Positions 16,026 through 28,964 of a stretch of 64,000 bases of DNA are shown in pieces. The stretch is from contig AP025583.1 of the NCBI GenBank assembly GCA_022846095.1, positions 2,480,001 to 2,544,000 of the forward strand, written 5' to 3'. The position numbers and the translations under genes are program-made. The notes beneath the pieces are model-generated. The model made no database searches. It was not told where the DNA came from and was given only the letters and a program-made list of their open reading frames with translations. Source of the DNA: Oscillospiraceae bacterium. GTDB taxonomy: Bacteria > Bacillota > Clostridia > Oscillospirales > Oscillospiraceae. The stretch's first letter is position 1; each line of letters opens with the position of its first letter.

Positions 16026-16658
16026 TCAGTCTAAAATATGCTTTGCTTTCTTTAAATCTCCACTGCACAAAGCGCTCATATTTCTGAAAATCTTATCAGC
16101 GTCCCAATTCCACCATTGAAGTCCAAGCAAATATTGAATCAGCTCTTCATCAAAACGTCTGCGGATCACGTTGCATGGATTCCCCGCAGCAATGCAATAT
16201 GGCGGAATGTCCTTTGCGACAACAGAATTTGCAGCAATGATTGCGCCATCGCCGATGTGTACACCCGGCAATACCGTTACATTCTGCCCAATCCAGACAT
16301 CATTTCCGACAACCGTATCGCCTTTAAAGGGCAGGTCGGTCATGGACGGGGCATACGCTTCCCAACCGCCGCCCATGATATTAAAGGGGTAAGACGTCAC
16401 GCTGTTCATTCTGTGATTTGCACCATTCATAATAAATTCAATCCCTTTTGCAAGCGCACAGAACTTTCCGATTATCAGTTTGTCACCGAGAAAATCATAA
16501 TGATGTGTAACGTGGCTTTCAAATTTTTCGGCACCGTCCACATCGTCATAATAGGTGTAATCTCCTACAATTATATTCGGCCTGGTAATAACATTTTTTA
16601 TATAGACAACCTGCTTGATACTCTCGTTGGGATATATGCTGTTTGGATTTGGTCCCAT
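16026..16658 (-). CDS. Vat-family streptogramin A O-acetyltransferase (probable)
   Basis: A 210-residue left-handed beta-helix (hexapeptide-repeat) acetyltransferase. The opening MGPNPNSIYP, the loop IMNGANHRMNSVTSYPFN with the catalytic histidine, and GNDVWIGQNVTVLPGVHIGDGAIIAANSVV closely follow the pattern of Vat(A-E) xenobiotic acetyltransferases (quoted in pieces: GNDVWIGQNVTVLPG, HIGDGAIIAANSVV). WWNWDADKI near the end matches the Vat C-terminus. Vat enzymes inactivate group A streptogramins with acetyl-CoA. An AAGGAG site lies 10 bases upstream. GC is well below the neighbours, and it sits beside tRNA-Leu. Actual resistance is not shown by sequence. Confidence 0.82.
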   Translation of the reverse strand: MGPNPNSIYPNESIKQVVYIKNVITRPNIIVGDYTYYDDVDGAEKFESHVTHHYDFLGDKLIIGKFCALAKGIEFIMNGANHRMNSVTSYPFNIMGGGWEAYAPSMTDLPFKGDTVVGNDVWIGQNVTVLPGVHIGDGAIIAANSVVAKDIPPYCIAAGNPCNVIRRRFDEELIQYLLGLQWWNWDADKIFRNMSALCSGDLKKAKHILD

Positions 16659-16710
16659 AACTTCCGTCTCCTTAACTTCAATTTACCTGGTGCGCACTTT
16701 ATAAAATGGG

Positions 16711-16728
16711 CGGACTGAAATCAGTCCG
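16711..16728 (-). terminator. hairpin at the end of the alpha/beta hydrolase gene
   Basis: CGGACTGA faces TCAGTCCG across AA, overlapping the stop codon region of the hydrolase gene. On the minus strand CCCATTTTAT follows, so it is at best a weak terminator. Confidence 0.4.
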
Positions 16729-17374
16729 GTAAGCGGGAATTTAGTAGTATGCCTTTCATAATTTCTGATAATTGCCTGGGATTTTCAACCATGGTCATGT
16801 GACAGGAGTCATGGATAAACACTAAATTCAGATGCTTTAAAACCTGTGTTGATAAATTTAAATCCTGAATTATAGCTGGATACTCAGGCATACCCCGGTC
16901 ACCGTAAATCGCATAAATATTCTGAGAGATTTCATTTACTAAATTGGTATAATCAAAATCAGCTTGAATTGAATTCAATAATTCAGCAGTATAGAATTCC
17001 CTTTCTTCATTTAGCATGTGGAGGATACTATTCCCATACTTTTTCATATTCTTTTGTGTCATTAAATTTCTATAAAATTCATGGGCAGGCTTTAAGTTTG
17101 TATCTAAATAAATTATTTTATCGACTCTCATTTTATGGTTTGCAACTAATTGCAGTGCAATGATACCGCCGAGACTATGGCCTATCATTGCATCATAACA
17201 ATGATGACCATAGTTTTTATAAACCCATTCAGTAATATCATCGACTTTATTTGCATGTAATGTTACCTCATGTGGGTACTCCACGTAATCAATTTCGAAG
17301 TTACTTAAATAAGGGCCTATATAATCCCATATGGCTTTTGTACAATTAACTCCGTAAAGTAGCATCAATCGCAT
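16721..17374 (-). CDS. alpha/beta hydrolase
   Basis: A 217-residue small alpha/beta hydrolase. LLYGVNCTKAIWDYIGPYL is the usual first strand and oxyanion region, the nucleophile elbow is GHSLGG, the acid is probably in AIYGDRGMPEYP, and the histidine is in IHDSCHMTMVENP. The substrate is unknown. GC is low, like the Vat-like gene 62 bases downstream, so both probably arrived together. No good ribosome binding site or promoter is seen, perhaps because a dispersed repeat end lies just upstream (about 17405-17430). Confidence 0.75.
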   Translation of the reverse strand: MRLMLLYGVNCTKAIWDYIGPYLSNFEIDYVEYPHEVTLHANKVDDITEWVYKNYGHHCYDAMIGHSLGGIIALQLVANHKMRVDKIIYLDTNLKPAHEFYRNLMTQKNMKKYGNSILHMLNEEREFYTAELLNSIQADFDYTNLVNEISQNIYAIYGDRGMPEYPAIIQDLNLSTQVLKHLNLVFIHDSCHMTMVENPRQLSEIMKGILLNSRLPD

Positions 17375-17596
17375 AATTCATTTCCATCCATAAATTAAAG
17401 TTTGTCGAGTGCGCCTTATCCGCCTGAGACGCACAAAGCAGCTTTTCGTTTGTCGCTCTTTAATACTTCATGCGCATTTTATCATGCAGACAAACGATTT
17501 GCAATGTGCCGTCAAACCGCCGCAGCGTTACAATCAGAACAGAAGGAGAAGCGGGGGCTTTTTGTGCGCAAAGCGGGGCGCTGCACCGCATTTCGT
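17375..17596. other. intergenic stretch with a partial dispersed-repeat end
   Basis: GTGCGCCTTATCCGCCTGAGACGCAC at 17408-17433 (quoted by its core CTTATCCGCCTGAG) matches the end motif of the dispersed repeats described below. Short overlapping open frames here have no ribosome binding site or recognisable product. Nothing else is seen before the promoter at 17597. Confidence 0.5.
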
Positions 17597-17625
17597 TTGA
17601 CTGGGCAGGCGGAAAAGCGTATACT
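17597..17625 (+). promoter_or_regulatory. promoter of the Hpt / c-di-GMP / SDR operon
   Basis: TTGACT and TATACT are separated by 17 bases, 72 bases upstream of the Hpt start codon. Confidence 0.8.
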
Positions 17626-17696
17626 CATACTGTATCAATTGTCCGCCCGGAGACGGTTGCGCCGTGGGCCCGGGCCGGTTAGGGAGTGATTGCGGC

Positions 17697-18059
17697 ATGA
17701 ATATCGAGACAGTCGTCGCGCTTAAGGCGGCGGGCGTGGACACCGAGGGGGCCCTCAACCGGTTCAGCGGGAACGCGGCGCTCTACGAGCGGTTTTTATT
17801 GCAGTTCCCCAAGGACGGGAATTTCGGCCTGATAGGGCCCGCCCTTGCGGCGGGGGATATGGACGCGGCCCTGCGCGCGGCCCACACGCTCAAGGGCGTG
17901 TCGGGCAACCTGGGGCTGAAGCGGCTCTACGACGCCTGCTCCGAGACGGTGCGCCTGATCCGCGCGGGGGAGGCGCGGCAGGCGGCGGCGTCCTACGGCG
18001 CGCTGGCCGCGGCCTACACGGAGGTGTGCGCGGCGCTCCCGCGGCCGGAGGGGGCGTAG
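17697..18059 (+). CDS. Hpt (histidine phosphotransfer) domain protein
   Basis: A 120-residue stand-alone Hpt protein. The phospho-accepting histidine is H63 in AAHTLKGVSGNLGL, the standard AHxLKG motif, inside a predicted four-helix bundle. It shuttles phosphoryl groups between a hybrid kinase and a receiver domain. AGGGAG lies seven to eight bases before the ATG. The next gene, two bases on, begins with a receiver domain and is its likely partner. No histidine kinase is present in the operon, so the phosphate donor must be encoded elsewhere. Confidence 0.85.
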   Translation: MNIETVVALKAAGVDTEGALNRFSGNAALYERFLLQFPKDGNFGLIGPALAAGDMDAALRAAHTLKGVSGNLGLKRLYDACSETVRLIRAGEARQAAASYGALAAAYTEVCAALPRPEGA

Positions 18060-18061
18060 GG

Positions 18062-21000
18062 ATGGACAAGCGGGACACGATCCTCATTGTGGACGATATG
18101 GAGATCAACCGCGCCATCCTCCGGGGCCTGTTCGAGCGGGACTACAACCTGCTGGAGGCGGAGAACGGCGAGCAGGCCCTCATGCTGCTGGAGCAGTGCC
18201 ACGAGAAAATCGCCTGTATGCTGCTGGACGTGGTGATGCCGGTGAAGGACGGCTACCAGGTGCTCACCGAGATGGGGGAGCGGGGCCGCCTGGCCGAGGT
18301 GCCTGTGGTGGTGATCACGGCGGAGGGATCGGCGGAGAACGAGGTGCGGGCCTTTGACCTGGGCGCCTCGGACATCGTGATGAAGCCCTTCGAGCCCTAC
18401 GTGGTCAAGCGCCGGGTGCAGAACATCGTGGAGCTCAACCGCCACCAGCTGCACCTGGAGGAGCTGGTGGACGAGCAGGCCGACAAGCTGCGCCAGTCCA
18501 ACGAGGTGATGATCGACGCGCTCTCCTCCGTCATCGAGTACCGCAGCCTGGAGTCGGGCCAGCATATCCTGCGTATCCGCATGTTCACCAAGATCCTGCT
18601 GGAGGACGTGGAGCGCAGCTACCGGGAGTACAACCTGGACGAGCGGAACATCGCCATCATCGCCAGCGCCGCGGCCATGCACGACATCGGCAAGATCGCC
18701 ATCCCGGACGCCATCCTCAACAAGCCCGGCCCCCTGACGAAAGAGGAGTTCGAGGTCATGAAGACCCACTCGGCCAAGGGCTGCGAGATCCTGGCCAGCC
18801 TGGACGGGATGGGGGACGAGGAGTATCTGCGCTACGCATACAACATCTGCCGCTACCACCACGAGCGCTGGGACGGCAGGGGGTACCCGGACGGGCTGAA
18901 GGGGGACAACATCCCGGTGTGCGCCCAGGTGGTGGGCATCGCCGACGCCTACGACGCGCTGACCACCGACCGGGTGTACAAAAAGGCCTTCCCCCACGAG
19001 CAGGCCTTCAACATGATTCTCAACGGCGAGTGCGGGGCCTTTTCCCCCCGGCTGCTGGAGTGCTTCAAAAACGTGCGCGCGCAGTTTGCCGAGCTCTCCC
19101 GCGCCTACGCGGACGGGCGCTCCCCCAAGGCCGACCGCTTCGGGGCCCAGGCCGCGCCCAAGCTGCGCTACGCCACCCAGGACACCCTGCAGCAGGGGCA
19201 GACCAAGTACTTCTCCCTGCTGCGCTACCTGAACTGCGCGGTGATGGAGGTGGATCTCAACACGGGGATCTACCACCTGGTCTACGTGCCCAGCACCGAT
19301 TTTGAACTGCTGCGCACCGGCGGCAGCTTTGAGGAGGCCATCTGCAACTTCGCCCAGGGCTCGGTCCACCCCGACGACCGGGCGCAGGTGGTGGAGGGGC
19401 TGGACGGCTACGTGCGCACCTTTTTTGAGGACGGCCTGATGAAGCGCGATCGCCGCTACCGGGTGTACAGCCACGCCGACGGGGGCTACCGCTGGTGCGA
19501 GGCCACCATGCTCCGCCTGGATACCGGCGACCCCAAGCAGCGCCGGGCCTTTATCGTCTGGCGCCCCATGGAGCCGGACGAGGCGGCGGGCCGCCGCCGG
19601 GAGGAGGAGCGGGCGAGCCGGGAGCTGCTGGACAGTGTGATGGGCGGCATCCTGCTGTGCCGGAACGACCAGTGGTTCACCCTCAAGCAGATCAGCGAGA
19701 GCTTCACCCGCCTGACCGGGTACGATCAGGCGCAGCTGGAGCGCCGCTTCCAAGGCCGCTACCTGAACCTCATCTACCCCGCCGACCGGGAGGAGACCCT
19801 GGAGCAGACCCGGGAGCAGCTGCGCGCGGGCAACGCCATCGAGGTGGAGTACCGCCTGGCCTGCGCGGACGGGCGGACCATCTGGGTGCTGGAGAAGAGC
19901 CGCCTCATGACCGACGGGGACGGGGAGGAGTACTTCTACTGCGCGCTGGTGGACGTGACCCAGTCCAAGAGCGCCCAGGAGGAGCTACGCCTCACCCTGG
20001 AGCGGCACAAGATCATCATGGACCAGACCAACGACATCATCTTCGAGTGGGACATCGCCAGGGATACCCTGATCTACTCAAGCAACTGGGAGACCAAGTT
20101 CGGCTACACCCCCATCCGGGACAACGTGAGGCGCAAAATGCTCACCGTCTCCCACATCTACCCGGAGGATCTGCCCGACTTTGCCCGCATCATGGACGAG
20201 ATGTCCACCGGCACGCCCTACGCCGAGGCCGAGTTCCGGGTGGCCAAGTCCGACGGGCGGTACATATGGTGCCGTATCCGGGCCAGCGCCCAGTTCGACG
20301 AGGCGGGCAGGCCCATCAAGGCGGTGGGGGTCATCGTGGACGTGGACGACGACCGGCGCACCGCCCAGGCCCTGCGGGACAAGGCGGAGCGGGACGGGCT
20401 GACCAAGCTGTACAACAAGCCCGCCGCCCGGCGGCAGGTGGAGGCCTACCTGGAGGAGCGCTCCGGCCGGGAGCGGGCGGCCCTGCTCATCATCGACGTG
20501 GACAACTTCAAGCAGGTCAACGACCGCTACGGCCATATGTTCGGGGACGCGGTGCTCACCGAGATCGCCGGGGAGATCCGCAAGCTCTTCCGGGGCGGGG
20601 ACATCATCTCCCGCATCGGCGGGGACGAGTTCCTGGTGTTCCTGCGCCGCATCCCGGACACGGGGCTGGCGGCCGACCGGGCCGCGCAGCTCATCGCCGC
20701 CTTCCAGAGCCTGTTCCGGGAGCACCTGGCGGACTGCCGCCTGTCGTGCAGCATCGGCGTATCCTTCTGCCCGGAGGACGGCACCAGCTTCCAGGAGCTG
20801 TTCCAGCGGGCCGACCGGGCCCTCTACCGGGCCAAAAACCAGGGCAAGGACCGCTACGTGCTCTACGACCGGCAGGCCATGGATCTGGCCCCCGGCGCGG
20901 GGGAGGGGGCGCAGAGCGCCGCCAGCACCCGCATCGACTCGGACGACAGCCGGGCCGGCGCGGCCACCGACCTGATCCGCCAGACCTTCCGCCAGCTCTA

Positions 21001-21847
21001 CGAGGCCAACGACCTGGACGGGGCGGTGCACTCCATCCTGGAGCTGGTGGGCCTGCAGTTCAACCTGAGCCGGGCCTACATCTTCGAGTGCCCGCCGGAG
21101 GAGGACTTCTGCCGGGACACCTTCGAGTGGCACGCCGCCGGGGTGCCCGCCGGGGTGGGCACGGTCCACCCGGTGCGGGACGAGGGGCTGGGCGGCTACT
21201 ACCCGGACCACTTCAACGAGGCGGGCATCTTCTACTGCCCGAACGTGGACGGCCTGCCCGGCCCCCAGCGGGACGTGCTGCGCCGGCAGGGCATCAAATC
21301 CATGCTCCAGTGCGCCATGCGGGAGGGGGGCGCCTTCCGGGGGTACGTGGGCTTCGACGACTGCAACATGCGCCGGCTGTGGACCCAGGAGCAGATTGAC
21401 GCCATCACCTTCGTCTCCGAGCTGCTGTCGGTGTTCCTGCTGAAAAAGCGGGCCCAGGAGCGCTCGGACCGGGCGGCGGAGGACATGCGCCTGGTGCTGG
21501 ACAACCAGGACGCGTGGATTTACGTCGTGGACCCGGACACCATGCAGCTGCTCTTCGTCAACGCCAAGACCCACGAGCTCACCCCCCACGCCGATGTGGG
21601 TATGCGGTGCCACCGGGAGTTCCTGAACCGGGACGGCGTGTGCCCGGGCTGCCCGGTCAGGGACATCCGCGCGGTAGGGCGGCGCTCCACCGAGTTTTAC
21701 AACGACGTGCTGGACATCTGGTCCGCGGTAGACGCGGCACTCATCCACTGGGGCGGGCGGGAGGCCTGCCTGGTGAGCTGCCACGATATTACCCCGTATA
21801 AAAAGCTGGAAGCGAACACAAAAACGGAACAGGAGGAAGTAAAATGA
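18062..21847 (+). CDS. multidomain c-di-GMP protein: REC, HD-GYP, PAS x3, GGDEF, GAF, PAS
   Basis: A 1261-residue cytoplasmic regulator. In order: receiver (residues 5-125, phospho-acceptor D56 in LLDVVMP, lysine K108), HD-GYP phosphodiesterase (HD at 207-208, HH at 266-267, GYP at 274-276), a PAS-like module (about 385-505), PAS (525-640), PAS (650-765), GGDEF (motif 853-857, inhibitory site R844-x-x-D847 exactly five residues before it), GAF (about 985-1130) and a last PAS (1140-1245) with CPGCPV. Both catalytic motifs for making and breaking c-di-GMP are intact. No transmembrane segment is seen. Its TGA overlaps the ATG of the SDR gene. Input probably comes by phosphorelay through the Hpt protein. 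Confidence 0.9.
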   Translation: MDKRDTILIVDDMEINRAILRGLFERDYNLLEAENGEQALMLLEQCHEKIACMLLDVVMPVKDGYQVLTEMGERGRLAEVPVVVITAEGSAENEVRAFDLGASDIVMKPFEPYVVKRRVQNIVELNRHQLHLEELVDEQADKLRQSNEVMIDALSSVIEYRSLESGQHILRIRMFTKILLEDVERSYREYNLDERNIAIIASAAAMHDIGKIAIPDAILNKPGPLTKEEFEVMKTHSAKGCEILASLDGMGDEEYLRYAYNICRYHHERWDGRGYPDGLKGDNIPVCAQVVGIADAYDALTTDRVYKKAFPHEQAFNMILNGECGAFSPRLLECFKNVRAQFAELSRAYADGRSPKADRFGAQAAPKLRYATQDTLQQGQTKYFSLLRYLNCAVMEVDLNTGIYHLVYVPSTDFELLRTGGSFEEAICNFAQGSVHPDDRAQVVEGLDGYVRTFFEDGLMKRDRRYRVYSHADGGYRWCEATMLRLDTGDPKQRRAFIVWRPMEPDEAAGRRREEERASRELLDSVMGGILLCRNDQWFTLKQISESFTRLTGYDQAQLERRFQGRYLNLIYPADREETLEQTREQLRAGNAIEVEYRLACADGRTIWVLEKSRLMTDGDGEEYFYCALVDVTQSKSAQEELRLTLERHKIIMDQTNDIIFEWDIARDTLIYSSNWETKFGYTPIRDNVRRKMLTVSHIYPEDLPDFARIMDEMSTGTPYAEAEFRVAKSDGRYIWCRIRASAQFDEAGRPIKAVGVIVDVDDDRRTAQALRDKAERDGLTKLYNKPAARRQVEAYLEERSGRERAALLIIDVDNFKQVNDRYGHMFGDAVLTEIAGEIRKLFRGGDIISRIGGDEFLVFLRRIPDTGLAADRAAQLIAAFQSLFREHLADCRLSCSIGVSFCPEDGTSFQELFQRADRALYRAKNQGKDRYVLYDRQAMDLAPGAGEGAQSAASTRIDSDDSRAGAATDLIRQTFRQLYEANDLDGAVHSILELVGLQFNLSRAYIFECPPEEDFCRDTFEWHAAGVPAGVGTVHPVRDEGLGGYYPDHFNEAGIFYCPNVDGLPGPQRDVLRRQGIKSMLQCAMREGGAFRGYVGFDDCNMRRLWTQEQIDAITFVSELLSVFLLKKRAQERSDRAAEDMRLVLDNQDAWIYVVDPDTMQLLFVNAKTHELTPHADVGMRCHREFLNRDGVCPGCPVRDIRAVGRRSTEFYNDVLDIWSAVDAALIHWGGREACLVSCHDITPYKKLEANTKTEQEEVK

Positions 21848-22671
21848 CCGTATTCAAGGACCGCTTTGCCGGGAAGACCATGCTGGTGACCGGGGGCACC
21901 TCGGGCATCGGCAAGGCCGCCTGCCTGCGGGCGGGGGCCGAGGGGGCCAACGTCGTCGTCGTGGGCCGCAACGCCCAGCGCGGGCAGGCCGTGGTGGACG
22001 AGATCGTCCAGGGCGGCGGCAAGGCCATCTTCATGGCGGCCGACATGACCTCGGAGGCGAGCATCATGGCCCTCTTCGAGCAGATCGACGCGCTGGTGGG
22101 GCCCGTGGACCTGGCGGTGAACAACGCAGGCGTGGTGGGCCACGGCGAGCGCATCGACGAGATGCCCACCGAGGAGTGGAACCGGGTCATCAATACCAAC
22201 CTGAGCGGCGTGTTCTTCTGCTGCCGGGAGGAGTCCAAGCGGATGATCGCCCGTGGCCAGGGCGGCGCCATCGTCAACGTGGCCTCGGTGGCCGGCCTGA
22301 CCGGCTTCTACCGCGCCACCGCCTACGTGGCCTCCAAGCACGCGGTGAACGGCCTGACCAAGGCCATGGCCAGCGACCTGGCCCCCTTCAACATCCGCGT
22401 CAACTCCATCAACCCCGCCAACACCACCACCCCGCTCACCGATGCCTCCGCCGCCGAGGTCAAGGCCAAGCTGGGCGCGGCCATGGCGTCCGGCAAGAGC
22501 CTGGACGAGGCCAAGGCCGACACCATGATCGGCGGTAAGACCATGGCCCTCATCAAGCGCAACTCCGAGCCGGAGGAGCAGGCGGCGGCTATCCTCTACC
22601 TGCTCAGCGACGACGCCTCCTTCATCACCGGCGCCGCGGTGGGCACCGACGGCGGTTTTACCTCCTACTAA
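21844..22671 (+). CDS. short-chain dehydrogenase/reductase
   Basis: A 275-residue classical SDR. The cofactor motif TGGTSGIGK is at residues 16-24, NNAG follows, the catalytic set is the Ser of VNVASVAG with YVASK (Tyr and Lys), and the C-terminal GAAVGTDGGFTSY is standard. It is an NAD(P)-dependent oxidoreductase of unknown substrate. An insertion of about 20 residues (AAMASGKSLDEAKAD) lies in the substrate loop. The ATG overlaps the stop of the signalling gene (ATGA), so expression is tied to it, which is unusual for a metabolic enzyme. Confidence 0.88.
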   Translation: MTVFKDRFAGKTMLVTGGTSGIGKAACLRAGAEGANVVVVGRNAQRGQAVVDEIVQGGGKAIFMAADMTSEASIMALFEQIDALVGPVDLAVNNAGVVGHGERIDEMPTEEWNRVINTNLSGVFFCCREESKRMIARGQGGAIVNVASVAGLTGFYRATAYVASKHAVNGLTKAMASDLAPFNIRVNSINPANTTTPLTDASAAEVKAKLGAAMASGKSLDEAKADTMIGGKTMALIKRNSEPEEQAAAILYLLSDDASFITGAAVGTDGGFTSY

Positions 22672-22696
22672 AGACCGAATCACCGGTTGGCACAAG

Positions 22697-22727
22697 TCTA
22701 TGTAGAGCGGCTAAGGCGGATAAGGCG
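22697..22727. repeat. partial dispersed-repeat end
   Basis: The stretch around GCGGCTAAGGCGGATAAGG is the reverse complement of the right end of the repeat at 25717-25732 and shares the neighbouring AGTCTAT. Only this end is present. Confidence 0.55.
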
Positions 22728-22763
22728 GCCGAGGAGCCCCAGGCCGAATAATACCCCTCATGC

Positions 22764-22803
22764 ACAGGGAGGCAGGTACCGAGGGTACCTGCCTCCCTGT
22801 TTT
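22764..22803 (+). terminator. terminator of the Hpt-SDR operon
   Basis: A 17-base perfect stem (ACAGGGAGGCAGGTACC facing its complement) with loop GAG runs into TTTT. Confidence 0.9.
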
Positions 22804-22811
22804 GCGACCGC

Positions 22812-24182
22812 CTAAAGGCCGTAGCGCCCTTTTTTCTGGTACAGCGTGGCCCGGCTCACCCCCAAAATGCGGGCGGCCTGGGCCACGTTGCCCGCCGTGT
22901 CGGCCAGCGCCCGCGCCACAGCCGCGCGCTCGGCCTGCTCCAGGGAGGGGCAGGCCCCCTCCCCGGCGGGGTCCTGCTCCTCCCCCAGGGCCTCGGCGTA
23001 GCCCTCCGCCCCGGCGGCGAGGGCCTGGCGCACCCGCTCCTCGGTGATCTGCTCCCCGCCCCACCACACGGCCAGGCGGCGCACCGCGTTCTTGAGCTGG
23101 CGCACGTTGCCCGGCCAGGGCCTGCGCCGGAGGTAGTCCATGGCCGCCGGGGACAGCCGCAGCCGCCCCTGGGAGAAGTGGTCCACCAGCAGCGGGATGT
23201 CCTGCGTCCGGCTGCGCAGCGGCGGCAGGAAAATCTCCAGCACCGAGAGCCGGTAGTACAGATCCGCCCGGAACTGGCCCGTGCGGCTCATGGCGGGCAG
23301 GTTGCGGTTGGTGGCCGAGATGACCCCCGCCCGGAAGGGGATTACCCGCCTGCCCCCCACCCGCTCAAACTCCCGGGACTCCAGCACCCGCAGCAGCTTG
23401 CCCTGGAGGGCGGGGGGCATGTCCCCGATCTCGTCCAGCAGGATGTCGCCCCCCGCCGCCAGCTCAAATTTCCCGGCCCGGGCCGCGTCCGCCCCGGTGA
23501 AGGCCCCCTTCTCGTGGCCGAAGAGCTCGCTCTCCAGCAGGTTTTCCGGGATGGCGGTGCAGTTGAGGGTGATATAGGGGGCGAAGGCGGCGCCGTGCCG
23601 GGCGCTGTGGATGGCCCCGGCCACGATCTCCTTGCCCGTGCCCGTCTCCCCGATGACCAGCACCGGCTCCCCGCTCCCCGCCGCCCGGCGGCACTGCTCC
23701 CGCAGCGCCTGGGCCGGTGGGCTCTCCCCCAAAAAGTCCTCGAAGGTATAGCCGCTGTCCGAGCGGGCGATGTTCTGGTAGATCTCCCCCACCTCGCCCT
23801 CCCCCGCCCCGGAGAAGATCTCCTTCACCGCGTTCAGGGAGCGGAAGAGCACCGTGCCCAGCACGCCGATGATCCGCCCCCCGTCCTCGATGGGGAAGAG
23901 GCTGGACACGCTCCTGCGGCCGTTGAGCTCCAGCAGCAGCCCGGTGGCGGGCCGCCCCGTCTCGATGACCCGGGTGAAGGGGGAGACGTTGTCCACCGCG
24001 GACACGTGTCTGCCCACCATGCTCTCCCGCTGCTCCAGCACCGGGTAGGCCCCCCGGCTGATGCGGATGATCCTGCACTGCGCGTCCACCAGGATGGATA
24101 CGTCGAACACCTTGTCCATCAGCTCGTCCAGCAGGCCGCCCCTGGTGTGGAGCGCCCGCTCGGAAAGGTGCAGCGCCTCCAT
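22812..24182 (-). CDS. sigma-54-dependent transcriptional activator
   Basis: A 456-residue enhancer-binding protein. Residues 1-130 are a PAS-like sensor, the AAA+ domain (about 150-375) has Walker A GETGTGKE, the sigma-54 contact loop GAFTGA within ELFGHEKGAFTGA, Walker B LLDEIGDM and the arginine finger region FRADLYYRLS. The C-terminal Fis-type helix-turn-helix is GNVAQAARILGVSRATLYQK. It needs RpoN, so the genome must encode sigma-54. It diverges from a gene with a near-perfect -24/-12 promoter, which is its obvious target. The PAS domain probably senses a small aromatic or redox signal. Confidence 0.92.
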   Translation of the reverse strand: MEALHLSERALHTRGGLLDELMDKVFDVSILVDAQCRIIRISRGAYPVLEQRESMVGRHVSAVDNVSPFTRVIETGRPATGLLLELNGRRSVSSLFPIEDGGRIIGVLGTVLFRSLNAVKEIFSGAGEGEVGEIYQNIARSDSGYTFEDFLGESPPAQALREQCRRAAGSGEPVLVIGETGTGKEIVAGAIHSARHGAAFAPYITLNCTAIPENLLESELFGHEKGAFTGADAARAGKFELAAGGDILLDEIGDMPPALQGKLLRVLESREFERVGGRRVIPFRAGVISATNRNLPAMSRTGQFRADLYYRLSVLEIFLPPLRSRTQDIPLLVDHFSQGRLRLSPAAMDYLRRRPWPGNVRQLKNAVRRLAVWWGGEQITEERVRQALAAGAEGYAEALGEEQDPAGEGACPSLEQAERAAVARALADTAGNVAQAARILGVSRATLYQKKGRYGL

Positions 24183-24207
24183 AGCCGTCCCCCCTTGTAT
24201 GATTTCT

Positions 24208-24256
24208 ATACACTACTATAACAGGTGTATGGTTTTTTGACAATAACCGTCCGGTA
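24208..24256 (+). promoter_or_regulatory. candidate enhancer sites for the sigma-54 activator
   Basis: ATACAC and GTGTAT face each other across 11 bases (24208-24230), and ACCG/CGGT face across two bases (24247-24256). They lie about 95-140 bases upstream of the -12 element, the usual distance for activator sites, between the two divergent genes. Confidence 0.45.
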
Positions 24257-24343
24257 ACCCATCCCCCCTGAAAAAACGGGTGCAAAACCGCCTCCGCCTG
24301 GGGCCCAGCGCCTTGGCGGTTTTCCACAAAAACGACCCGGAAT

Positions 24344-24359
24344 TGGCACGGTGCTTGCA
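24344..24359 (+). promoter_or_regulatory. sigma-54 (-24/-12) promoter
   Basis: TGGCAC, five bases, TTGCA matches the RpoN consensus at every defined position, with the GG and GC doublets 12 bases apart. Transcription should start near 24370, 25 bases before the hydrolase start codon. Confidence 0.9.
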
Positions 24360-24394
24360 TGCTTATGGTACAAATCAAGCGAGGAGTGACAGCC

Positions 24395-25198
24395 ATGAGC
24401 CAACGCCCTGTTTTGACCCCGGAGGAGCGGGCCCTCCCCTACGCCAAGTACTACGACCTGCCCGTCACCCCCATCCCGCCGGAGAAAATCGCCGTGCTGG
24501 AGGGGGGCCCCATGGACCCGGCGGACGCCCTGCCCATCCAGAACCGCAACGACCTCTTCCGCCCCGGGCGCCTGCCGGTGGAGGTGGGCTGGTGCGTGAT
24601 GCCCGACGGCACCGGCTACCTGTCCAACCGCACCGAGATGCCCGGCGTGACGGCGGAGATGTTCGAGTGGTGGTTCGCCTGGCACGGCCTGGAGGATCTG
24701 CGCTACCGCATCTGGGACCCGGAGGACCACTTCTACGCCCGCCAGCAGAACCGGGAAAAGGCCCTGGACGCCTCCCTGCCCATGCGGGAGCGCACCTGGG
24801 GCACCGTCCACCGGGTGCTGGAGGACATCGGCGGCGGCCCCGACGAGCTGATCCTGGAGTTCCGCTATCCCCATGAGCTGGGCTACCTGGAGGAGCAGGT
24901 GGGCACCCCGGCCTGCTCCGCGCTGATGTGCGCCAACGGCCACGGCCCCGTGCCCGGCCAGGGCGTGGCCGCGATTATGACCCACTTCGTCCGCGACATC
25001 CCCGGCGGCATCGAGCTGCGCAGCCGCTTCTGGATCGGCTGGGGGCTGGTGGACGGTAAGCTGGCCAAGCTCCTGCCCGACGGCGTGTCCGTTCCGCCCC
25101 AGGTGCCCATGGGCCTGTTCGCCCACAACCTGAAGGAGTTCGGCCACCTGGCCGCCATCCTGCCCCCCCTCTACGCAGAGCAGAAGGACAACTGGTAG
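24395..25198 (+). CDS. PhlG/phloretin-hydrolase family C-C hydrolase
   Basis: A 267-residue protein of the DAPG hydrolase (PhlG) family, which includes phloretin hydrolase of the gut bacterium Eubacterium ramulus. Family features seen are VGWCVMPDGTGYLSN, MFEWWFAWHGLE with H97, and HNLKEFG with H244 and E248, which by family would be zinc ligands. These enzymes split a C-C bond next to a phloroglucinol-type ring, releasing the acyl chain. GAGGAG lies eight bases before the ATG; an upstream in-frame ATG at 24359 overlaps the promoter and is rejected. Control by a sigma-54 activator points to induction by an aromatic substrate. The substrate itself is inferred only. Confidence 0.85.
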   Translation: MSQRPVLTPEERALPYAKYYDLPVTPIPPEKIAVLEGGPMDPADALPIQNRNDLFRPGRLPVEVGWCVMPDGTGYLSNRTEMPGVTAEMFEWWFAWHGLEDLRYRIWDPEDHFYARQQNREKALDASLPMRERTWGTVHRVLEDIGGGPDELILEFRYPHELGYLEEQVGTPACSALMCANGHGPVPGQGVAAIMTHFVRDIPGGIELRSRFWIGWGLVDGKLAKLLPDGVSVPPQVPMGLFAHNLKEFGHLAAILPPLYAEQKDNW

Positions 25199-28671: not shown

Positions 28672-28964
28672 AGAACGTAAAAAAACGCTTCTGCCCCATT
28701 GCTGGGACAAAAGCGTTAAATGCTTCTGCGATACCACCCAAATTGACGCTTGCGCGTCCACTCGCTTCACGCACCATCATGCGTGCCCGATGGATAACGG
28801 GTGGGGACCCGTCGGCATCTACTCAAAGCCTGCGCTTCTTTCAAGCCGCCCTCGGGAGGCCATTCTCCGGGTTCCAACCGCCCCGATTCCACCGTCCGGG
28901 GCTCTCTGAAGATTGGAGTACGCCGGGTACTTTTCTCCCTCACTGGTTTGTGCGTTTTAACTTG
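28672..28964 (-). ncRNA. T-box leader, UGG (Trp) specifier
   Basis: Read on the minus strand, stem I has the AGUA bulge (28931-28928), the distal AGAGAG...GGTGGAA pair and a specifier loop GAGAATGGCC whose TGG is at 28862-28860. GAGTAGA and GACGGG...CCCGTTA follow, then the T-box GGGTGGTATCGC (28739-28728) that pairs with the tRNA acceptor end, and a terminator hairpin AACGCTTTTG...CAGAAGCGTT with seven U residues (28717-28678). Uncharged tRNA-Trp should favour readthrough into the importer genes. The specifier assignment is the least certain part. Confidence 0.9.

Follow-up and report, generated by a model that had tools for sequence, protein, structure and literature searches.

The DNA studied here is a stretch of 64,000 nucleotides (nt) from Oscillospiraceae bacterium (GenBank assembly GCA_022846095.1, contig AP025583.1, positions 2,480,001 to 2,544,000), and this whole stretch is called the window. 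Three neighbouring genes on one strand of the window encode a histidine phosphotransfer (Hpt) protein, a large protein of 1261 amino acids (aa) with HD-GYP and GGDEF domains, and a short-chain dehydrogenase/reductase (SDR). An earlier reading made from the letters alone (the sequence-only reading) had placed these genes here, and the open reading frames (ORFs) and Pfam confirmed them. It had also put the SDR start inside the stop codon of the large gene, where an ATGA was indeed found. The features of the locus are as follows.

17597..17625, plus strand: promoter-like site TTGACT-N17-TATACT, by consensus matching (10/12)
17697..18059, plus strand: Hpt gene, ATG start, 120 aa, 2 nt before the large ORF
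18062..21847, plus strand: large gene, ATG start, TGA stop, 1261 aa
21844..21847, plus strand: ATGA overlap of the large-gene stop and the SDR start, read from the sequence
21844..22671, plus strand: SDR gene, ATG start, 275 aa
22765..22799, plus strand: perfect 16-bp hairpin followed by TTTT, between the SDR gene and the convergent sigma-54 regulator gene

The Hpt protein scored 44.1 bits against the Pfam Hpt profile (cut-off 24.6) and has the phospho-histidine motif HTLKG at residue 63. Position 17597, the left border of the sequence-only reading, is the -35 element of the promoter-like site. Four such matches occurred within 17000-23000, compared with 1.0 expected from shuffling. The SDR gene has its own ribosome-binding site, AGGAGG, 7 nt 5' of the start. 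The fold of 22755-22810 had an energy of -36.5 kcal/mol (z -6.8), and the hairpin within it is a probable end of transcription. The terminator scan did not list this hairpin because its T-run of only four fails the rule of the scan. It is likely that the three genes form one operon and share one transcript. Exact 4-nt overlaps were present at 4/30 same-strand neighbour pairs in the window and at 1/25 in seven other loci of the same genome. Such overlaps are routine here, and therefore the ATGA between the large gene and the SDR gene is no mark of special coupling.

The domain order of the 1261-aa protein is REC, HD-GYP, PAS, PAS, PAS, GGDEF, GAF, PAS, with the following positions.

18080..18415, plus strand: receiver (REC), residues 7-118, Pfam; D11, D12, D56 and K108 present
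18494..19117, plus strand: HD-GYP region, residues 145-352, Pfam HD 167-299 and HD_5 179-319
19127..19606, plus strand: divergent PAS, residues 356-515, weak Pfam plus AlphaFold2/Foldseek
19691..20344, plus strand: two PAS domains, residues 544-625 (PAS_3) and 652-761 (PAS), Pfam
20387..20854, plus strand: GGDEF, residues 776-931, Pfam; product-inhibition site (I-site) R844-x-x-D847, and D829
21011..21433, plus strand: GAF, residues 984-1124, borderline Pfam
21443..21826, plus strand: C-terminal PAS, residues 1128-1255, AlphaFold2/Foldseek; C1183, C1194, C1197 and C1240

The receiver, HD/HD_5, two clear PAS domains and GGDEF were over the Pfam cut-offs. The GAF domain scored 20.8 bits in the whole protein (cut-off 22.4) and 24.1 when scored alone. 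The first PAS (~356-515) was under the cut-off (E 6e-5) and the last (~1128-1255) was not significant (E 0.13). In AlphaFold2 models, these two regions had mean predicted local distance difference test (pLDDT) values of 82.7 and 91.5, respectively, and their best Foldseek matches were PAS/LOV domains. The query template-modelling scores (TM-scores) of the rows listed were 0.35-0.54 for the first and 0.56-0.67 for the last. The models thus support a PAS fold for both regions. No membrane-helix-like hydrophobic stretch was found (Kyte-Doolittle, highest 19-residue mean 1.38), and hydropathy ruled out a membrane protein. A soluble chain with a receiver in front and GAF-PAS at the back, as the sequence-only reading had described it, agrees with these data. 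The domain search also recovered the other domains which that reading named, and added the three PAS domains before GGDEF, which it did not mention. The motifs HDIGK and HHERWDGRGYP, and RGGD five residues before GGDEF, were read in the protein. The cysteines of the C-terminal PAS (C-x10-C-x2-C...C, residues 1183-1240; 21608-21781) were kept in 18/18 rows having this domain, which makes a metal or redox site possible. A literature search, outside which most subscription journals fell, returned no description of this domain order in the parts of the papers available to it.

The layout defines what we regard as a small, recognisable clostridial family, uncommon but family-wide. With the focal protein as query, full-length matches were found in 4/149 relatives, namely its own genome (two copies), G005, G017 and G101. 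With an alignment of five proteins as query, full-length matches were found in 4/394 order genomes (G000, which is the own genome, G101, G172 and G198), in 2/391 class genomes (G000 and G638), and in one of 390 relatives of G638, G638 itself. These are minimum counts, because scoring covered just the best few candidates of each genome (up to four in the search of 149 relatives and two in the others), and the genome sets overlap. In a one-genome-per-species collection, the best 80 loci included at least 10 proteins with REC, HD-GYP, GGDEF, GAF and C-terminal PAS (L050 being rearranged); locus L043 was without the last PAS, and L052 had only REC-HD-GYP-GGDEF. Proteins of Hungatella, Soleaferrea and Murimonas belong to the family. 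Shorter REC-HD-GYP-GGDEF proteins of 697-824 aa were present in 10/30 loci returned by the search of 149 relatives, and therefore a soluble chain that combines a receiver with HD-GYP and GGDEF is not rare here. The order, called unusual in the sequence-only reading, is uncommon; it is nevertheless a family property, found also in a paralog of the same genome. The rearranged relative (L050:229-5337, 1702 aa) has GAF and PAS before GGDEF, and Gly at the first HD-GYP metal ligand.

The closest proteins are those of Candidatus Soleaferrea massiliensis (L040), Hungatella effluvii (L041), Murimonas intestini (L044) and Clostridiales bacterium 1_7_47_FAA (L045), with the same eight-domain order, 51-57% identity and an intact receiver. 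As in the focal operon, an Hpt gene lies directly upstream in L040, L041 and L045. The downstream gene is a hybrid kinase in L040 and unrelated in L041, L044 and L045, whereas the focal operon has the SDR. L044 differs from the focal locus in the loss of the I-site Arg and in having no Hpt next door. The paralog (L031, G000:C1:2097401-2101168) is 49% identical to the focal protein over the whole length, has the same listed catalytic residues and also overlaps its next gene by 4 nt. Unlike the focal gene, it is followed by a SnoaL-PAS-GGDEF hybrid kinase and has no Hpt next door. By eye, it lies between queA (~15 kb) and tgt-yajC (~8 kb), much like the Soleaferrea locus, the only one at which queA and tgt were profile-tested. 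The kinase of the paralog (L031:590-4399, minus strand; overlapping it by these 4 nt) is a hybrid histidine kinase whose N-terminus resembles SnoaL and in which a GGDEF is embedded before HisKA. Stand-alone REC-HD-GYP regulators (most of L051-L119, many from Lachnospiraceae) were 42-53% identical to the focal protein in the best segment. An Hpt gene was found somewhere in 34/69 of these loci; unlike the focal protein, nearly all of the regulators were without a PAS, GGDEF or GAF match.

A tree of 20 proteins, from which L050 was left out, placed the focal protein in a 10-member clade with a support of 100/100 (focal, paralog L031, L040-L045, L148 and L151). L050 was counted among the 11 proteins outside the clade. 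An Hpt gene adjoins 6/10 clade members (focal, L040, L041, L042, L045 and L148), and a hybrid kinase gene adjoins 4/10 (L031, L040, L043 and L151). As L040 has both, an Hpt and/or a hybrid kinase lies next to 9/10 clade genes, each beside an intact receiver, which supports the phosphorelay input proposed in the sequence-only reading. The Hpt of L045, at 23.9 bits, is just under the Pfam cut-off of 24.6. The kinase query picked up two further matches: a distant kinase at L041 and, in an ORF of 158 aa upstream of the L148 Hpt, a short stretch resembling a kinase. Outside the clade, an Hpt or hybrid kinase was found next to 0/11 proteins within the flanking sequence covered. The neighbourhoods end at contig ends, with <1 kb downstream of L033, L047 and L147 and <1 kb upstream of L050. 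That L146, L147 and L149 have no hybrid kinase nearby was judged by eye plus one kinase query, and the search for Hpt neighbours rests on five Hpt queries other than the focal Hpt.

The state of the receiver followed the same division. The four receiver residues were intact in 10/10 clade proteins, plus L035 and L149, and eroded in 9/11 proteins outside the clade. A relay partner was present at 9/12 genes with an intact receiver and 0/9 with an eroded one (Fisher p 0.001; the test treats related proteins as independent, and the value is only indicative). Receivers decay without a partner while GGDEF and the HD-GYP ligands stay, and this is the best evidence that the Hpt and the receiver of the large protein may work together. 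The focal pair, with D11, D12, D56 and K108 in the receiver and HTLKG in the Hpt, has the residues of a phosphorelay output.

The HD-GYP domain was compared with PmGH. All eight metal ligands are present in the focal protein (E164, H168, H207, D208, H236, H266, H267 and D295), corresponding to E185, H189, H221, D222, H250, H276, H277 and D305 of PmGH. These ligands place the domain in the trinuclear (E/D-T-G) subgroup. The equivalents of Lys225 (K211), Asp308, Arg314, Lys317, Ile294 and the GYP motif of PmGH are also present. For this comparison we took PDB 4mcw to be PmGH, and the chain numbering fits with a constant offset. The eight ligands are intact in 20/21 family rows. PmGH is an HD-GYP phosphodiesterase of Persephonella marina with a solved structure (PMC4159591), in which the eight ligands form a tri-iron site. 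The focal protein differs from it in having GGDEF in the same chain and, instead of the GAF of PmGH, a receiver in front.

The GGDEF domain scored 137.5 bits (cut-off 23.8), with the signature at 853-857 and with D812, N820, D829 and R844-x-x-D847 intact. The signature, the metal and substrate residues and the product-inhibition site of a diguanylate cyclase are thus all in the sequence, if the roles of these positions are, as we assume, those of PleD. In the family, GGDEF, D812, N820 and D829 are intact in 20/20 assessable rows and the I-site in 18/20, the rearranged L050 being left out of these counts. A GGDEF of the cyclic GMP-AMP (cGAMP) type (Hypr) was rejected: D829 is Asp in 20/20 assessable rows and not Ser, which we take to be the mark of that type at the position of PleD D344.

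The neighbours of the homologs outside the clade point to surface structures. L035 lies among flagellar genes, with an overlapping PilZ protein gene followed by flgB, flgC and fliF. L149 lies between csrA and flgB-fliF-fliG. FlgB had no Pfam match and was matched by NCBIfam; in L149, FlgB (58.1 vs 59.05 bits) and FliF (111.8 vs 129.75) were under the NCBIfam cut-offs and only FliG was over. T2SSF/PilT-type pilus genes were found near L034, L049 and L147, and sortase and/or tip-pilin-like genes near L034, L046, L047 and L048. Counting L034 once, 8/11 loci outside the clade have a surface structure within ~6 kb, a figure for which the background rate of such genes is unmeasured. By profile, no surface structure was found at L033, L050 and L146; the L033 neighbour had only a DUF5979 match and was not counted as a pilin. 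The own genome has 28 GGDEF matches (27 over cut-off), and 13 EAL, 3 HD_5 and 2 PilZ matches over cut-off, and the large protein is therefore one of many inputs to a network of cyclic diguanosine monophosphate (c-di-GMP). It also has two c-di-GMP-I riboswitches. One of them immediately precedes a Cna_B/VWA pilin-like gene, which has 1982 codons or more (L144:2-5947, minus strand). In C. difficile and B. thuringiensis, c-di-GMP is reported to control surface proteins through riboswitches (PMC6447587 and PMC4933901).

The SDR has the motifs TGGTSGIG at residue 16, NNAG and YVASK (adh_short 195.4 bits), and thus the TGX3GXG, NNAG and YX3K of classical SDR oxidoreductases. No NCBIfam model was over its cut-off for the SDR among the matches listed (25 of 222). 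The relatives of known structure that matched best are various alcohol, hydroxysteroid and acyl-carrier-protein reductases, and no substrate is assignable from them. A pteridine reductase of the PruA/FolM type was rejected, as TGX3RXG is absent and TGGTSGIG is the general SDR form. Among 198 related genomes searched, none of the other 197 had a relative of it at E <= 1e-60. Among 391 class genomes, the other 390 gave one at 1e-50, with 44% identity. By eye, this gene lies between a phosphorylase-like gene and proC, two genes from a LytTR regulator, and no c-di-GMP gene was noticed near it in 12 kb. An SDR gene directly adjoins 0/20 homologous large genes. The sequence-only reading had tied the SDR to the signalling protein and proposed its co-occurrence in relatives as a check; the overlap counts and these neighbourhoods do not bear out the tie. 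Non-conservation of the SDR beside the large gene, as observed here, is one half of the refuting condition named in that reading; the other half is the inactivity of a catalytic domain in assays. At both the paralog and the Soleaferrea locus, a hybrid kinase takes the slot of the SDR, with the same 4-nt overlap. The simplest history would be that the SDR replaced or displaced a kinase in this lineage, by loss or exchange of the kinase. Its link to metabolism is probably incidental, and the SDR a chance neighbour.

We believe, with a probability of about 0.58, that the large protein is a phosphorelay-switched, potentially bifunctional c-di-GMP enzyme with a surface-structure output, and that the SDR is a passenger. 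The protein would be the orphan output of a phosphorelay, with its hybrid histidine kinase encoded at another place in the genome. Phosphate would pass from this kinase to the Hpt, and from the Hpt to the receiver, if the flow runs in this direction. Phosphorylation of the receiver, together with the PAS and GAF inputs (possibly including the cysteine PAS), would set the balance between synthesis and breakdown. GGDEF would synthesise c-di-GMP within the limit set by the I-site, and HD-GYP would break it down or bind it. The output would go to a c-di-GMP network controlling flagella, type IV pili and sortase-linked pilins. This surface output is proposed because of the neighbourhoods of the homologs and the riboswitch in the own genome, and a role in surface attachment or motility is probable. 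The SDR would merely share the transcript. The explanation rests on gene order, domains, conserved residues, the Hpt/kinase pairing in the clade and the lack of an adjoining SDR.

Several observations weigh against this explanation. The focal operon has no kinase gene beside it, and Murimonas L044, the exception in the clade, has no relay partner next door. Outside the clade, an ordinary histidine kinase gene adjoins L049 on the other strand; if any kinase is counted, the figures are 9/10 in the clade vs 1/11 outside. No surface-structure neighbours were noticed around the genes of the focal clade. SDRs lie 3.0-5.2 kb away (midpoints) at 3/20 homologs (L043, L044 and L048), compared with 1/69 other REC-HD-GYP loci (Fisher p 0.03, unadjusted), and this tendency is a weak hint that the SDR may not be a pure passenger. 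In GGDEF-EAL and GGDEF-HD-GYP proteins, one domain is typically inactive, as stated in the accessible part of PMC6205966. For HD-GYP, the position of PmGH Asp183 is Ser162 in the focal protein (18545-18547); of the putative catalytic pair D183/K225 of PmGH, only the Lys (K211) is present. The D183A mutant of PmGH lost hydrolysis, according to the accessible part of PMC4159591. This position is Ser in 14/15 full-length rows assessed and Asn in L048. The domain may be slow, may act on another dinucleotide, or may only bind.

Across 129 HD-GYP rows (the fetched loci, with five proteins counted twice and L146-L151 left out), the Asp183 position holds Ser (71 rows), Asn (34), Asp (10) or another residue or a gap (14). 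Ser or Asn is therefore the rule in this HD-GYP group, and the whole group may work differently from PmGH. Owing to Ser162, phosphodiesterase activity is less certain than was claimed in the sequence-only reading, which was right about the HD-GYP ligands, the GGDEF signature and the RxxD but made no mention of this Ser; the activity is plausible but not safe. The catalytic role of D183/K225 was proposed in one enzyme, and therefore the HD-GYP assignment stands while the activity is in doubt. The Ser would suit a different division of labour, in which only GGDEF is catalytic and HD-GYP is regulatory or binding, or acts on another dinucleotide such as 3'3'-cGAMP. The chain 5z7c, named 3'3'-cGAMP-specific phosphodiesterase 3, also has Ser at the aligned position. 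However, 5z7c is a phosphodiesterase by its PDB name, and the focal domain keeps the eight metal ligands, the Lys225 and Asp308 equivalents and GYP, as an inactive enzyme would hardly be expected to do; we regard this division as rather unlikely. The reverse case, in which GGDEF is a regulator sensing guanosine triphosphate (GTP) or product and the protein effectively acts as a phosphodiesterase, is improbable. The typical inactivity of one of two opposed domains (PMC6205966, and PMC5052742 on GGDEF-EAL proteins, in their accessible parts) would suit it, but the GGDEF signature and the substrate and metal positions are intact in every assessable row, and the I-site in 18 of the 20.

The SDR could also be a functional partner: PAS/GAF would sense a ligand or redox signal which the SDR produces, takes away or reports, as PruA does for DcpA. 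The ATGA overlap, the good ribosome-binding site and the likely shared transcript are consistent with this, and the four conserved cysteines of the C-terminal PAS could suit redox sensing. In the Agrobacterium PruA-PruR-DcpA system, an SDR feeds a c-di-GMP protein with synthesis and breakdown domains (PMC13259868, accessible part). DcpA, by the same source, sits in the membrane and has a periplasmic domain, and PruA has TGX3RXG, whereas the focal protein is soluble and the focal SDR is without this motif. The nearby SDRs of the three homologs also favour a partner, and those of L043 (L043:1389-2156, plus strand) and L044 (L044:13375-14118, plus strand) are 58% identical to each other. The identity of all three to the focal SDR is, however, just 30-32%, and their places differ: the L043 SDR is two genes upstream with a hybrid kinase between, and those of L044 and L048 are further downstream. 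Because position, strand and sequence differ, we keep the SDR as a passenger as the likelier reading. The lack of a directly adjoining SDR in all 20 homologs sets a conserved partner low. The 44% relative without a noticed c-di-GMP gene and the 4/30 overlaps of the window also speak against a partner, which we consider quite improbable. In its most specific form, the SDR took the place of the hybrid kinase and feeds a redox-active ligand to the GAF and four-cysteine PAS, as an independent clostridial counterpart of PruA-DcpA; this is very improbable.

If the SDR did feed the large protein, the opposed c-di-GMP activities of one chain would be joined both to a phosphorelay and to a metabolite signal made by an enzyme. 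This link, the most striking part of the sequence-only reading, is weak. Opposed-domain c-di-GMP proteins are common, but a family that keeps both sets of active-site residues throughout offers a natural series. The receiver is kept mainly beside a relay partner, and the family is thus suited to the study of how a receiver shifts the balance from synthesis to breakdown and back. In different Clostridia, family members have flagellar, type IV pilus or sortase-pilus genes as neighbours, so several surface structures may each have come to use this family.

Other features of the window lie on both sides of the operon. Upstream, at 16026-17374 (minus strand), is a low-GC gene pair, with a GC content at third codon positions (GC3) of 0.45 and 0.32 in a window of 63% GC. 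One of the two genes encodes a streptogramin A acetyltransferase of the Vat family, which scored 332.6 bits with NCBIfam (cut-off 300), and the other a small alpha/beta hydrolase; the pair looks like a recent arrival. Downstream, a DAPG-hydrolase-family protein (24359-25198, plus strand; PF18089, 261.4 bits) is encoded divergently from a sigma-54 activator (22812-24182, minus strand). Phloretin hydrolase, we assume, belongs to the same family, and 22812-25198 may be a locus for aromatic-ketone hydrolysis. A T-box leader at 28700-28952 (minus strand) is the only cis-regulatory RNA of the window over the Rfam cut-off.

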